A stretch of 40,984 nt of DNA from Methylacidimicrobium tartarophylax (GTDB lineage: Bacteria > Verrucomicrobiota > Verrucomicrobiia > Methylacidiphilales > Methylacidiphilaceae). Under the pieces are notes generated by a model that was given only the letters and a program-made list of their open reading frames with translations, was not told where the DNA came from and did not search any database. A program made the translations under genes and the position numbers. This document shows, one piece after another, positions 13,262-22,926 of the stretch. The stretch covers positions 1 to 40,984 of the forward strand of contig NZ_CABFVA020000034.1 of assembly GCF_902143375.2 (NCBI RefSeq), read 5' to 3'. Positions within the stretch are counted from its first letter, which is position 1. Each line of letters opens with the position of its first letter.

Positions 13262-13357
13262 GCACTAGAAAAATGGAGCCCTTTGCCGTCGGAGCCAAGA
13301 GCAAAATCCGCTTTTGCCCGCTCCATCTCGGTTGCTCTTCGAGAATCACCTGCGCAT

Positions 13358-13386
13358 TTGCCAAAGATCGAAGCCCTCTGTATTGT
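13358..13386 (+). promoter_or_regulatory. Possible promoter with leaderless spacing, thioredoxin gene
   Basis: TTGCCA at 13358-13363 and TATTGT at 13381-13386 are separated by an optimal 17 bp. The -10 ends 7 bases before ATG 13394, so the mRNA would start at about the start codon. No Shine-Dalgarno sequence precedes the ATG. The same geometry occurs at htpX. Confidence 0.4.
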
Positions 13387-13393
13387 CAGCCTC

Positions 13394-13888
13394 ATGGACT
13401 TCGCATGCGCCGCCCGGCGGCTTCAAAGTGGACGGTTGGCCCTTGTCCTCGGTTGGATGGTTCCCCTGCTTTTTTCCGCAGCGGCCTTCGCTGGATCTGC
13501 CAATTGGACGACGGATTATCCCAAGGCTCTCAAGGAAGCCAAAGCCCAAAAGAAGCTGGTGCTGGCAAACTTTACCGGTTCCGACTGGTGCCCGTGGTGC
13601 CAAAAGCTCCAGCGCGAAGTGTTTTCGACCCCGGAGTTTCAGCAGTACGCCAAGGAACATCTCGTGCTGCTTGAGCTCGATTTCCCTCAACGCAAACCGC
13701 AAACGGAGGCTTTGAAGCAACAGAACAAAGAGCTCGCGGACCGATACCACGTCGACGCCTTCCCGACCATCCTGCTGCTGGATCCCGAAGGGCAAGAGGT
13801 CGCCTCCATGGGTTACATGCCAGGCGGAGCCAAGCCGTTCTTGGACAAAGTCGAGCAGCTTCGTCAGAAAGCAACTTCCGGAGGTTGA
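13394..13888 (+). CDS. Exported thioredoxin-family protein
   Basis: A 164-residue protein with a signal peptide (basic start, hydrophobic about residues 15-31, cleavage near AFAGS) and a thioredoxin fold. The redox pair is C66-PW-C69 within FTGSDWCPWC, followed by KLQREVF and FQQYAKEHLVLLELDFP. DAFPTILLLDPEGQEV holds the cis-proline. This variety is common in Verrucomicrobia and Planctomycetes, and it probably works as a periplasmic disulfide reductase or isomerase. The frame extends 37 codons upstream, but the chosen ATG gives the signal peptide. It is divergent from the NtrC-type gene. Its partner proteins are unknown. Confidence 0.85.
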   Translation: MDFACAARRLQSGRLALVLGWMVPLLFSAAAFAGSANWTTDYPKALKEAKAQKKLVLANFTGSDWCPWCQKLQREVFSTPEFQQYAKEHLVLLELDFPQRKPQTEALKQQNKELADRYHVDAFPTILLLDPEGQEVASMGYMPGGAKPFLDKVEQLRQKATSGG

Positions 13889-14058: not shown

Positions 14059-14442
14059 ATGAAACGAACATGGTCCACAGGCGCGAAGGCACTCTCGGTG
14101 AGTGCACTGGCTCTCTTTCTCTCCTCCCCATTGCATGCCCAGGATTCTTCGTCCTCCTCCCAGGAAGCCGAGTCCCAGGCCGCCACGCCGGAGAACCATC
14201 ATCATCACCACCCAATGCACCGGCAGGTGCGGGAAAATCATGAGAAGATGCGGCGTCTCATGGAGCGCCAAGACGCCGAGTTGCGGCGTCTGACGGAAGA
14301 AATGAACCAGGCTCCTTCCGACAAGAAGCTCGATCGGGCCTGCGCCGTGATCAACAAGCTCGTCGAACAGCGGAAGGAAATGCACGACGCAATGGAAGGC
14401 ATGCATCAAAAGTGGATGCATCAGATGGGTGAAGGGAAATAG
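14059..14442 (+). CDS. Small secreted His/Met-rich helical protein (paralog 1)
   Basis: A 127-residue protein with a signal peptide (residues 1-27, ending LHAQ) and a Ser/Glu linker with HHHHH at 47-51. The rest is predicted helical and rich in Met, Glu and His, including MHDAMEGMHQKWMHQM at the end. The core at 69-109 aligns without gaps to residues 73-113 of the protein at 14633, with 18 of 41 positions identical by eye (shared DKK(L/I)D and EQRK). I do not recognise the family. His and Met clusters suggest periplasmic metal binding, perhaps copper given the oxidase gene nearby, but that is inference. A Spy/CpxP-like chaperone is another possibility. Confidence 0.75.
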   Translation: MKRTWSTGAKALSVSALALFLSSPLHAQDSSSSSQEAESQAATPENHHHHHPMHRQVRENHEKMRRLMERQDAELRRLTEEMNQAPSDKKLDRACAVINKLVEQRKEMHDAMEGMHQKWMHQMGEGK

Positions 14443-14632
14443 GTTTCGTCCCGCTACTCGGCTTCAAAGACGATACGCAGCCTGGATTTCAAGGGGTCGC
14501 ATTTGACCGGCGGATGGAGCAACCTCCCCTGGATATTCGGGCTCTCATAGCGTTCTTGTCGCTTGCAGTCCGGGTGACCGGCAGCGCGCGTTCGTTTTCT
14601 TTCGAACGTCGTCCTCTTCCCCCTCCTTTCGC

Positions 14633-15142
14633 ATGAGCCCTTTCCTCCACCGACGAGCCTTCCGTCCGTCGACATCTGCCTGGGGCCGCGCCGTACGGCT
14701 TGGTCTAGCCGGAGCCTTTTTCGGCACAATGTTCGCCCAATTGCGCCCGGCAGCGGCACAGCCCGTTGCCTCGCCAGTGCTCGCTCGGCCTAGTTCCGCA
14801 CAACAGCGGCAGATTCAACAGATGCAAGAACGTTTGCGGAAGATGACCCGCGAGCAAGACGACGAACTGGAGCACCTCCTAGGCGAATTGAACGGGGCTT
14901 CCCGCGACAAGAAGATTGATCTTTTGACCCGGATCGTGACCCGCCTGATCGAACAGAGGAAGGCCTTTCACCAGGAGAGTGAAGCCGTGCGTCTAAGGAT
15001 TCTCGATATGCAGAATCCGCCCGCCCCCCTGCCTCGAGCCATGGCTCCTCCACCCCCTCCTGCGCGCGCCATCGAGAAGTCGGACTCCTCGGAAAACCCG
15101 CCGGCGGCTTCCGAACAAGGTTATTTGCCCCAGCAGCAGTAA
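14633..15142 (+). CDS. Small secreted helical protein with Pro-rich tail (paralog 2)
   Basis: A 169-residue protein with an Arg-rich start and a hydrophobic stretch ending LRPAAAQP, so it is probably exported. The helical core at residues 55-125 (QMQERLRKMTREQDDEL and further) matches its neighbour at 14059. The tail is rich in Pro and Ala (APPPPPARA) and ends in QQQ. It has no His cluster. The 190-bp gap to the previous gene suggests separate expression is possible. The function is unknown; a paired role with the His-rich paralog is my inference. Confidence 0.7.
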   Translation: MSPFLHRRAFRPSTSAWGRAVRLGLAGAFFGTMFAQLRPAAAQPVASPVLARPSSAQQRQIQQMQERLRKMTREQDDELEHLLGELNGASRDKKIDLLTRIVTRLIEQRKAFHQESEAVRLRILDMQNPPAPLPRAMAPPPPPARAIEKSDSSENPPAASEQGYLPQQQ

Positions 15143-15343: not shown

Positions 15344-15571
15344 CTAAGTTTCGGCGTCGACTTCCTCGACAATATCCTGGTTGAGAAACTCCGCGTAGGC
15401 CGGCGGCGGAGTTCTCTCCCGCTTCAGCAGGCGGTAGCCCGCCCAGACGAAAGCTCCCACAACGCCGATCACGAGGGCCAGCAGGAACAATCCTGCAACC
15501 AACCCGGCCCGTTCCGCTTGGGTTCCGACCGGCGCAGAAATCGCTTCGGGAGTTAGGAGCGTGTTCAGCAC
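15344..15571 (-). CDS. Small single-span membrane protein downstream of oxidase subunit I
   Basis: A 75-residue protein with one membrane helix at about 23-48 (AGLVAGLFLLALVIGVVGAF) and a charged tail. It starts with GTG behind a GAGAGCAGG stretch. It follows subunit I by 87 bases on the same strand. Size and position suggest a small accessory subunit such as a subunit IV or CcoQ-like protein, but no family is recognised. Confidence 0.6.
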   Translation of the reverse strand: MLNTLLTPEAISAPVGTQAERAGLVAGLFLLALVIGVVGAFVWAGYRLLKRERTPPPAYAEFLNQDIVEEVDAET

Positions 15572-15658: not shown

Positions 15659-17500
15659 CTAGACATGCACCTTCTCGGCGGGTGCCTTTTCCTCCGCGGT
15701 CGGCTCCCACTGAGGGAGGAAATCCCGCTCAGCCCCTGGGACGCTATACTCGTAGGGACCGCGATAGACCGTGGGAGCCACGGGAAAGTTCCCATGTCCA
15801 AGCGGGGGAGTGGGAGTCGCCCACTCCAGAGTGGTTGCTTGCCACGGATTGTCGGATTTCACCTTCTCTCCGTATTTCGCACTCCAGAAAAAGTTGATGA
15901 TAAACGGAATTTGTGCGAGTGCCAGCAGCCAGGCCGAGATCGACATCACATGGTTGAGCCAAAGGACGTGCTGCGCGTACTGCCAGCCGGCTCCCCCGTC
16001 GTACCAACGCCGGTGCATCCCGTTCATCCCCTGGATCAGCATCGGGAAGAAGATGCCGTTGAAAAAGAGGAGCGTCGGCCAGAAATGGAGCTTCCCAAGG
16101 AAGTCGTTCATCATGCGGCCCGTCACCTTCGGATACCAGTAGTAGATCCCGGCGAAGAGAGCCATGAGCGAGGTCGGCGCCATCATGTAGTGGAAGTGGC
16201 CCACGACATAGTAGGTGTCGTGAAGGACGAGGTCCGAGGAACTCCAGCCGTTCGGAAGCCCGGTCAAGCCGCCGATGGCGAAGAGAGGAAGCCAAGACAA
16301 GGCGAAGAGCATCGGCAGGTTGACGCGGATCGACGCTCCCCAAAGGGAAAGAAGAAACACCGTTCCAATGAGCACCGAGGGAATCGAGATCAGCGTGGTG
16401 AAGATCTGGAAAAAGGTCGTCACGCCTTGGCCCATGCCCGTCATGTACATGTGATGCGCCCAGACGACCATCCCGATCAATCCGATGGCGATCTCGGAGT
16501 AGACGATCGCCCGGTAGCTCCAGAGTGGCCTGCGGGTATTGTTCGTCCAAATCTCCGCAATGATGCCCATGGTGGGGAGGATCTGGACGTAGACCTCGGG
16601 ATGCCCGAGAAACCAGAAGAGATGTTGCCAAAGGAGCGGAGCGCCGCCTCCGCTGACCGCCACCCGCTGTCCTCCAACGATCAGGCCGTCGGGGGAAAAG
16701 AAGCTCGTTCCGGCGAGCCGATCCATGAGCTGCATGACGGCGGCAGACTCGAGCGGCGGAAAGGCCAGGAGCATGAGGAAAGCGGTAACAAGTTCAGACC
16801 AGACGAAGATCGGGAGCCGCATCCAGCCCAGCCCCGGCGCCCGGAGCTGGAAGATGGTCGTGATCATGTTGATGGTCCCCAGCAGCGAACCGGTGATGTT
16901 GAAGGCCATCCCGAGCAGCCAGAGGGTCTGACCGTTGAGAACCGGGTGAAATCCCGGACCGGAGTCGGCAAGATCCGCCAGCGGAGGATAGGAGGTCCAT
17001 CCCGACTTTGCCGCACCTCCCGGCACAAAAAAGCTCGCGACCATAATGACGACACCCACGAAGAAGCACCAGAAGCTCGCCATGTTGAGCCGAGGGAAGG
17101 CCATGTCGGGAGCGCCCAGCTTGAGAGGAACGATGTAGTTGCCGAACCCCGCAAAAAGCGCGGGCACGAGCGCCATGAAGATCATGATGGTCCCATGGAT
17201 CGCCCCGAATGAGTTATACAACTGCGGCGTCATGACTCCGCCCGGAGCCATGTTCGATCCGAAGACCTGCTGCATCAGGTGCGCAAAAATGGGCACGGGC
17301 TTTCCAGGATAGGAGAGCTGCCAGCGCATGAAAATCATGAGGACGAACCCGAAGAGACCCATCAGCAGCGAGGTCACCATGTACTGGATACCGATCACCT
17401 TGTGATCAACGGAGAAGACCCACCGTTTCCACCAGGGCAAAGGCTCCCCGTGCCCATGTTGCCCCGGTTCCACAGGATTTTCGGTCATATGGCTGTCCAT
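15659..17500 (-). CDS. ctaD: Cytochrome c oxidase subunit I, A-type heme-copper oxidase
   Basis: The 613-residue catalytic subunit has about 12 membrane spans. Seen residues are H102 (heme a), CuB ligands H300 in HPEVY with Y304 for the cross-link and H349/H350, H435 (heme a3) and H437 (heme a) in HDTYYVVGHFHY. D-channel residues N121, D132 and N139 plus E302 are present. The K-channel lysine of the usual PTGIKVF segment is replaced by Ile (I378 in PSVLIGTVF). AGAGGG and GGAGG precede ATG 17500. Subunits II and III are not adjacent; only the small membrane protein follows. Terminal quinol or cytochrome c oxidase of the inner membrane. Confidence 0.95.
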   Translation of the reverse strand: MDSHMTENPVEPGQHGHGEPLPWWKRWVFSVDHKVIGIQYMVTSLLMGLFGFVLMIFMRWQLSYPGKPVPIFAHLMQQVFGSNMAPGGVMTPQLYNSFGAIHGTIMIFMALVPALFAGFGNYIVPLKLGAPDMAFPRLNMASFWCFFVGVVIMVASFFVPGGAAKSGWTSYPPLADLADSGPGFHPVLNGQTLWLLGMAFNITGSLLGTINMITTIFQLRAPGLGWMRLPIFVWSELVTAFLMLLAFPPLESAAVMQLMDRLAGTSFFSPDGLIVGGQRVAVSGGGAPLLWQHLFWFLGHPEVYVQILPTMGIIAEIWTNNTRRPLWSYRAIVYSEIAIGLIGMVVWAHHMYMTGMGQGVTTFFQIFTTLISIPSVLIGTVFLLSLWGASIRVNLPMLFALSWLPLFAIGGLTGLPNGWSSSDLVLHDTYYVVGHFHYMMAPTSLMALFAGIYYWYPKVTGRMMNDFLGKLHFWPTLLFFNGIFFPMLIQGMNGMHRRWYDGGAGWQYAQHVLWLNHVMSISAWLLALAQIPFIINFFWSAKYGEKVKSDNPWQATTLEWATPTPPLGHGNFPVAPTVYRGPYEYSVPGAERDFLPQWEPTAEEKAPAEKVHV

Positions 17501-21663: not shown

Positions 21664-22926
21664 TTACTGGGTAATGGCCTCGTCGGCTAAGAGCCACACG
21701 GTGATCGTCTGATTATGATGACCGATGGTTCCCGCAACCGTCGTGCCGGTTTCCCCGTATGTGGATGCCCCAACGACCGCGACGTGCTCCCCCAATTCTT
21801 CGCGAATCGCCCGCACCTCGTCCGTCCCGGAGCCCAAGCAGAGCGCCTGCTGATGACAAAGAATGCAATTAAAGACGACGACCGCCGCTACTCTTTTCGG
21901 GCTTCCCGCGTCGGCCAGCGCCCGCCGGACTGCCAAGCGAACCGATTCGACACGGCTCGACGCATCCGCCTCCAGCAGGGTCAATCCACTGCCCTTGGGA
22001 ATGGCGGAAAAGAAGACAATGGAGCCGTCCTCCTGAATTAGGGCCGGGCTGCGAACCTGCCAATAGCCTGCCGTAACCTCGATGATCCCCATCGGATTGC
22101 TGCTGAAGCGCTGCTGCGCCTCCCTCCAACTGGAGGCGCCGATCAGCTCCGCATAAACATCGGCCGCCGGACGGTGGTTCAGGGTTTTGACCACCCTGCC
22201 CTCGCTCTCGGTGACGAAGGCTCCCTTGGCGTCCATCGGACGAAAGGCGTTGGCCATGCCGACTCCATTCTTCAGCGTCGTGGCGATGCCCAAAAGAGAG
22301 AGCCCTCCCTTGTCGATCACCCCATCCCCGTGGGCATAGGTTTCCGTGATCCGATCGAGATAGAGTCGGTCGGCTGCCGTCCCTCCCACGACACGGGCCC
22401 CTCGACCCACCGCCCGAGAGATGCCCCGCAAGACGGCTTCCTCCGTTCCTACACTCGAATGGCCGACGAGCAGAGTAAATGGATTGGCTTGCAGCATCTG
22501 CGAAGCGCGCTTGCCGGTAAAGCCGATGTAGAGCAACTCGGGACTGAAATCAGCCCCGTCGAAAGCCTGTCGCGTCAACTCCTGCGCCCTCTCCTCCTCT
22601 TGCCCGTCGATCTTCCCCATCACCACGCAGGGAGCGAGCACATCCCCGCGCTGCTCGATCGCCAGAAGCAGAATTCCCTCCGTAGAAAGGTTCCCCTGCT
22701 CGCCATTGAAATGGCCGGCACAGGACAATCCCCAGGAATGACCGCCCAAGACACTCTGGATTTCCTTGGCAATCTCGCCCTGGTCCAGCGAACTTGCCGC
22801 AAAGAGGAGCGTCAACGTCGGGCTCTGAACTCCCTGTCGCCGCAACTTCTCCAACGCTTCCTGCACGTCCGCCCCGTAGGCCACGGTCGTGCGGACGTAA
22901 CGGGCCGAATCCATTTCCTGGTACAT
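21664..22926 (-). CDS. FIST-domain sensory protein
   Basis: A 420-residue protein with FIST_N (about 35-230) and FIST_C (about 235-400). VLGGHSWGLSCAGHFNGEQG, GKIDGQEEERAQ, VGHSSVGTEEAVLRG, RGARVVGGTAADR and AVVVFNCILCHQQALCLG are the visible motifs; the last carries the conserved Cys-rich ligand-site segment near the end of FIST_C. FIST domains are thought to bind small ligands such as amino acids. No kinase, cyclase or methyl-accepting domain is fused. GAGGAG lies seven bases before the ATG. It is probably a soluble sensor whose partner is encoded elsewhere. Confidence 0.88.
   Translation of the reverse strand: MYQEMDSARYVRTTVAYGADVQEALEKLRRQGVQSPTLTLLFAASSLDQGEIAKEIQSVLGGHSWGLSCAGHFNGEQGNLSTEGILLLAIEQRGDVLAPCVVMGKIDGQEEERAQELTRQAFDGADFSPELLYIGFTGKRASQMLQANPFTLLVGHSSVGTEEAVLRGISRAVGRGARVVGGTAADRLYLDRITETYAHGDGVIDKGGLSLLGIATTLKNGVGMANAFRPMDAKGAFVTESEGRVVKTLNHRPAADVYAELIGASSWREAQQRFSSNPMGIIEVTAGYWQVRSPALIQEDGSIVFFSAIPKGSGLTLLEADASSRVESVRLAVRRALADAGSPKRVAAVVVFNCILCHQQALCLGSGTDEVRAIREELGEHVAVVGASTYGETGTTVAGTIGHHNQTITVWLLADEAITQ

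Follow-up and report, generated by a model that had tools for sequence, protein, structure and literature searches.

A tandem pair of small, probably secreted helical-hairpin proteins in acidophilic verrucomicrobial methanotrophs belongs to an undescribed, copper-linked protein family

The window analyzed here is a stretch of 40,984 nucleotides, contig 34 of the 2.33-Mb genome of Methylacidimicrobium tartarophylax, an acidophilic verrucomicrobial methanotroph. Two small genes in tandem, here called P1 and P2, lie between genes for an exported thioredoxin and a cytochrome oxidase subunit (Table 1). Both products start with signal peptides that look classical by eye, ending in ...PLHA-Q in P1 and in ...PAAA-Q in P2. 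Mature P1 contains 10 His, 9 Met, and 1 Cys in 99 residues, and mature P2 contains 15 Pro, 2 His, 4 Met, and no Cys in 126 residues.

Table 1. Features of the P1/P2 locus (positions in the window)
Feature	Position	Strand	Description
Exported thioredoxin, CPWC	13283-13888	+	DsbH-like, under that model's cutoff; directly upstream of P1
P1	14059-14442	+	127 aa; putatively secreted His/Met-rich helical-hairpin protein; signal peptide ~1-28; predicted helices 51-84 and 87-124
P1 residues 71-111	14269-14391	+	Ungapped 41-residue core common to P1 and P2
P2	14633-15142	+	169 aa; Met-poor P1 paralogue; signal peptide ~1-43; predicted helices 55-88 and 91-127; Pro-rich tail
P2 residues 75-115	14855-14977	+	Counterpart of the P1 41-residue core
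Cytochrome c oxidase subunit I	15659-17500	-	Downstream neighbor of P2

By three alignment measures, the similarity between P1 and P2 is not a chance effect. The best ungapped 41-residue match has 18 identities (14 at most in 1,000 shuffles), the mature parts score 128 by Smith-Waterman, a value reached by none of 5,000 shuffles (highest, 71), and BLASTP aligns the two proteins with 21/59 identities (E = 1e-11). The dN/dS ratios of P1 and P2 were 0.09 to 0.20 in nine comparisons with congeners, and therefore both are genuine genes. The original prediction of a tandem pair of related exported proteins thus holds, with the open reading frames in place, signal peptides recognizable by eye, and homology beyond that of shuffled sequences; its ungapped 41-residue core with 18 identities was reproduced exactly. 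What it said of the differing tails holds in part: P1 is indeed His/Met-rich and P2 Pro-rich, but the HHHHH run emphasized in P1 is confined to this species, its congeners having HLHHH, HPHHH, HSAHH, or QSVHP. The His run varies among P1 proteins, whereas the Met columns stay conserved. We also considered a shared regulatory site 5' of P1, where seven congeners all have the same TCTA box ahead of the start, and found it unconvincing.

Among the 60 genomes of the order that were searched, P1-like proteins occur in 12 of the 13 Methylacidiphilaceae genomes, with two matches per genome, and are absent from the other 47. The 13th Methylacidiphilaceae genome (G008) has a single divergent relative, matched with P2 at an E value of 1e-4. 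This relative, the sole family member of the third methanotroph genus (L053:6979-7350), lies near a gene for an MntH Nramp manganese transporter. Further weak P2 matches in congeners (E values of 3e-5 to 0.008) were not counted as family members; two of them (L055 and L056) encode helical, secreted proteins that lack the family motif, and a third (L054) was likewise left out.

A block consisting of a Fur-family regulator, a response regulator on the opposite strand, the thioredoxin, P1, and P2 is conserved across both pair-bearing genera and was seen at each of the 11 loci set beside that of the window. The thioredoxin is DsbH-like (139.8 bits against a cutoff of 190). An exported thioredoxin and an oxidase had been pointed out near the pair, and both are present; the thioredoxin is a conserved neighbor, but oxidase subunit I follows P2 in this genus only. 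In the two Methylacidiphilum loci that were read, the oxidase slot is taken by unrelated open reading frames or by glycosyltransferases, which were recognized by eye and in one case by similarity as well; we therefore rejected the cytochrome oxidase as a functional partner with a conserved link to the pair. The gene after oxidase subunit I (15344-15571, minus strand) encodes a 75-aa protein that matches no Pfam or NCBIfam model and is retained in the genus, and a FIST-domain protein is encoded farther along the window (21664-22926, minus strand).

In Methylacidiphilum, the two reading frames overlap, P1 running into the beginning of P2 (by 8 nt in L048, L041, and L052, calculated from coordinates), which suggests that the two genes share one transcript there. 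In a core tree of 54 rows and 75 columns (midpoint root only, many forks open, L101 left out), the 12 P1 rows form one group and the 12 P2 rows another, and the two groups are sister to each other once the divergent G008 row is set aside. As far as a tree with so few columns indicates, P1 and P2 are old tandem duplicates, and the duplication predates the split of the two genera.

P1 and P2 belong to an undescribed family of Met-rich, probably secreted two-helix hairpins. Neither protein matches a Pfam or NCBIfam model at its cutoff, in keeping with the original statement that the family was not recognizable; the same is true of the broader members scanned singly, and alignment-wide scans against these libraries gave weak E values only. 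The profile search proposed at that time led to an unnamed Met-rich family that reaches other Verrucomicrobiota, Kiritimatiellae, and Desulfobacterota. With P1 as the sole query, two relatives were found elsewhere in the phylum (L025 at 1.5e-13 and L026 at 2e-8), and a scan of genome contigs from these two seeds returned 14 loci, of which 10 lie outside the methanotrophs. The resulting profile, A2, scores P1 at 1.5e-42 and P2 at 1.8e-43, both proteins being rows of that profile, and its core QDxxL..MNxAPxDKKxD....LVEQR, located between the two predicted helices, was present when P1 and P2 were tested for membership. A2 matches are sparse: they occur in 8 of 387 genomes in a sample of the phylum (six of the eight being Methylacidiphilaceae), in 11/293 and 11/239 genomes of the orders of G443 and G445, and in 2/297 genomes of the phylum of G440. 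No match was found by tblastn in plasmids with P1 or with one broad member, and none of 181 pattern stretches in viral contigs was confirmed. A small literature search yielded no paper on the family, and proteins of the P1/P2 type go unmentioned in the available portions of PMC8498564 and PMC6688271.

The typical broad member is exported and Met-rich, shares the hairpin core, carries a Cys in its first helix, and has a Cys-Pro-Met-Met (CPMM) tail. An automatic split placed both Cys features in 20 of 30 broad members, neither in 6, and only one in 4. The script put L104, which carries both features, in the wrong class, and the L101 and L032 sequences are truncated or broken; the divergent members L103 and L107 stay in the family counts. 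P1 lacks the CPMM tail, and its helix-1 Cys is replaced by His.

The wider family is tied to copper. In a clustering of the neighbors from 30 broad loci, the largest groups were P-type ATPases and CopA-type multicopper oxidases. Of 10 neighboring ATPases tested, 9 had a copper or heavy-metal model as their top match, as did that of L115. The ATPase at L034 is of the calcium type and was not counted. Gene proximity was evaluated at 31 loci, comprising all A2 matches outside Methylacidiphilaceae (from the phylum sample, the orders of G443 and G445, and the phylum of G440) and the genomes of L028 to L037. Within 6.5 kb of the family gene we found a CopA-type gene at 7/31 loci (0.085 expected), a copper P1B-ATPase gene over the cutoff at 10/31 (0.165 expected), and either one at 14/31 (0.25 expected; P = 2e-22), where the expected counts assume uniform placement and metal genes cluster. 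Since related species are not independent, we also removed five redundant loci, which left 9/26 against 0.20 expected (P = 1e-13). Copy numbers of the copper genes came from whole-genome searches of 28 genomes, with only ATPase matches over the cutoff included; most CopA-type matches fell under that model's own cutoff, yet had E values below 1e-70. CusA-type pumps, many per genome, were kept out of the statistic, and the loci of G444 and G447, which lack a contig number, were scored as having no copper gene nearby on the basis of L034 and L037. Several of the 17 loci without a copper neighbor lie on short contigs, and some lie on long ones. The family gene at L037 comes after a CusA/CzcA-type pump, and a remnant of a CopA-like multicopper oxidase, 113 N-terminal residues long (L104:7749-8090), lies 165 bp past another family gene.

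The pair itself has no such neighbors. Queries for the copper ATPase, CopA, CusA, and YHS-like proteins gave no tblastn match anywhere in the window, at any of the 11 further loci that carry the pair (10 to 16 kb each), or at L053, and the same queries recovered their kin in four control loci. A copper gene within 6.5 kb is a trait of 14/31 broad loci, but none was found near the pair in 12/12 methanotroph loci, and the three outside relatives that the tree places closest to the pair (L036, L100, and L102) are likewise without a copper neighbor. The copper link belongs to the wider family and, on present sequence evidence, extends to the pair by homology only. The original suggestion that the set could bind or buffer a metal such as copper is therefore partly supported, through the copper-linked relatives outside the methanotrophs; against it stand the variable His run, the genus-specific oxidase, the ligand-poor P2, and the lack of copper genes at all 12 pair loci.

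AlphaFold predicts a helical hairpin for each protein; the pLDDT exceeds 90 in the core and is low elsewhere, and the pTM is 0.52 for P1 and 0.45 for P2. Foldseek returned nothing at an E value of 0.001 or below among 114 matches for P1 and 258 for P2. VIA-align gave a tied list of generic helical hairpins at Z scores of ~9, and the tool's own note classes scores below 13 as uninformative for such hairpins. Solved structures sought by sequence (best E values of 0.0055 for P1 and 0.084 for the profile) were rejected as unrelated helical proteins or alignments starting at the His run.

Met residues common to P1 and the broad family lie at P1 positions 64, 68, 82, 108, 115, 119/120, and 123, although position 119 is Trp in the P1 of the window. 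The P2 proteins of this genus have Leu, Leu, Phe or Tyr, Val or Ile, and Ile at positions 64, 82, 108, 115, and 119, and these columns are therefore probably packing positions. Arithmetic on the predicted helix ends indicates that the stripe 108-112-115-119 faces residues 52 to 63, including His 54 and His 61. The position of His 54 is Cys in 22/29 broad members, and wherever a P1 row has a residue in column 50, 54, 61, 109, or 116, it is His (or Met/Cys).

Several known systems resemble the pair in part. Metal_resist (PF13801), whose members we take to be CnrX/ZraP-like helical hairpins, is alike in comprising exported helical-hairpin metal proteins. It gave weak subcutoff matches to one A2 member (E = 3e-4) and to the P2 of L041 (E = 0.008); however, P1 and P2 of the window have no match at E values up to 10, and the gathering score was not reached. 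No curated Spy/CpxP/ZraP (LTXXQ) model was among the Pfam and NCBIfam matches of P1 or P2. As described in the accessible part of PMC5008109, SilE and PcoE are also small exported Met/His-rich proteins, encoded beside Cu/Ag ATPases and RND pumps, and SilE folds upon metal binding. Proteins of the SilE/PcoE type bind several Ag(I)/Cu(I) ions. SilE, however, is disordered without metal, whereas a hairpin is predicted for P1 and P2, which have no pump neighbors; neither name appeared among the P1, P2, and family matches, in libraries that may hold no SilE model. CopM (DUF305) of Synechocystis is, according to the excerpt of PMC4335983, a periplasmic Met-rich copper binder with relatives near RND pumps and copper ATPases; it is similar in type, but P1 and P2 have no DUF305 match at E values up to 10. 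Csp1 stores Cu(I) for the pMMO of a methanotroph in a helical bundle (PMC10155185, in the part available), and this four-helix bundle is lined with many Cys residues, in contrast to the single Cys of mature P1 and none in P2. SilE, CopM, and Csp1 fulfill the kind of role proposed below with different sequences. The family probably works like the known periplasmic copper sponges.

On balance, by a narrow preference, we favor a role for the pair in periplasmic copper handling, with P1 binding or buffering Cu(I) and P2 serving as its structural partner. The exported hairpin would probably dimerize, P1 with P1 or P1 with P2, into a four-helix bundle, and Cu(I) would be taken up by the conserved Met side chains on the packing face and by Met and His at the open end, so that copper could be buffered in the acidic periplasm. 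P2, in which most Met positions are ordinary hydrophobic residues, would be structural. At low pH, His is protonated and a poor metal ligand, and thioethers are unaffected. Judging from the relatives, one or both proteins probably bind copper outside the cell membrane. Some features speak against the copper reading: the conserved Met may be mere packing residues, the pair loci and those of L036, L100, and L102 are without copper neighbors, P1 lacks the CPMM tail and has His for the helix-1 Cys, and His would be protonated at low periplasmic pH.

Alternatively, the pair may have left copper work and now act as a Skp- or Spy-like periplasmic chaperone or envelope-stress protein, assisting folding in acid with the exported thioredoxin. 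The conserved neighbor is indeed a DsbH-like thioredoxin gene and not a copper gene, Skp is among the tied structure matches, and one alignment member has a weak Spy match (E = 0.061). The Skp tie lies in the uninformative range of Z scores, however, no Spy/CpxP or Skp model was among the Pfam and NCBIfam matches of P1 and P2, and the conserved Met columns are common to the copper-linked relatives; we consider the chaperone explanation unlikely. That the proteins bind no metal, being small secreted structural helical proteins with a neutral Met and His composition, would agree with the ligand-poor P2 and its hydrophobic residues at the Met columns, but it is improbable given purifying selection and full His/Met conservation at several P1 columns.

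It is quite improbable that the pair binds a metal other than copper (Zn, Mn, Fe, Ni, or a lanthanide), with the His-rich start of P1 as the site. The columns that have His (or Met/Cys) in all filled P1 rows, the Nramp transporter near the lone member of the third genus, and the Fur-family regulator within the conserved block would all be in line with it. On the other hand, the relatives are linked to copper genes, the His run itself is variable, and the opposite-strand response regulator and the thioredoxin stand between Fur and the pair.

If the preferred copper reading is correct, the pair hints at how copper-requiring methanotrophs of low-pH environments might hold copper where His ligands work poorly, and it offers a natural, testable comparison, P1 having the Met positions that P2 lacks. 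The known periplasmic copper-handling proteins would gain a family that has no Pfam or NCBIfam model and a strong gene-neighborhood signal. Methylacidiphilum strain Kam1 is copper-dependent (PMC6688271, in the sections available). We speculate further, and with considerable doubt, that Met-lined secreted hairpins are a general copper sponge of Verrucomicrobiota and their relatives and that the duplicated, tail-less pair of the acidophilic methanotrophs serves the copper-dependent methane monooxygenase and the oxidase as an acid-proof store or carrier of Cu(I), with thioethers in place of the thiols of Csp1.

The loci of the broad family show several other features. Genes for small secreted Cys proteins of a YHS/TRASH-like kind are repeatedly found close to family genes (L115:6551-6898, L113:7761-8027, and L030:3169-3483; weak Pfam matches, under the cutoff), and a small Trp/Gly-rich single-helix membrane protein seems, by eye, to come after several family genes (L032:7473-7733, L031:7532-7828, and L034:3488-3748). 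Family genes in two phyla (L028 and L029) lie near Fe superoxide dismutase genes, with a bacterioferritin-like gene also at L028 and an alpha/beta hydrolase in both cases (by eye). At L099 (G563:C144), one copper P-type ATPase gene is flanked by two family copies, and at L103:6569-7540 the family hairpin is fused behind an N-terminal domain without a Pfam match and a Met/Gly-rich stretch (GMMGRQGMMGGG).
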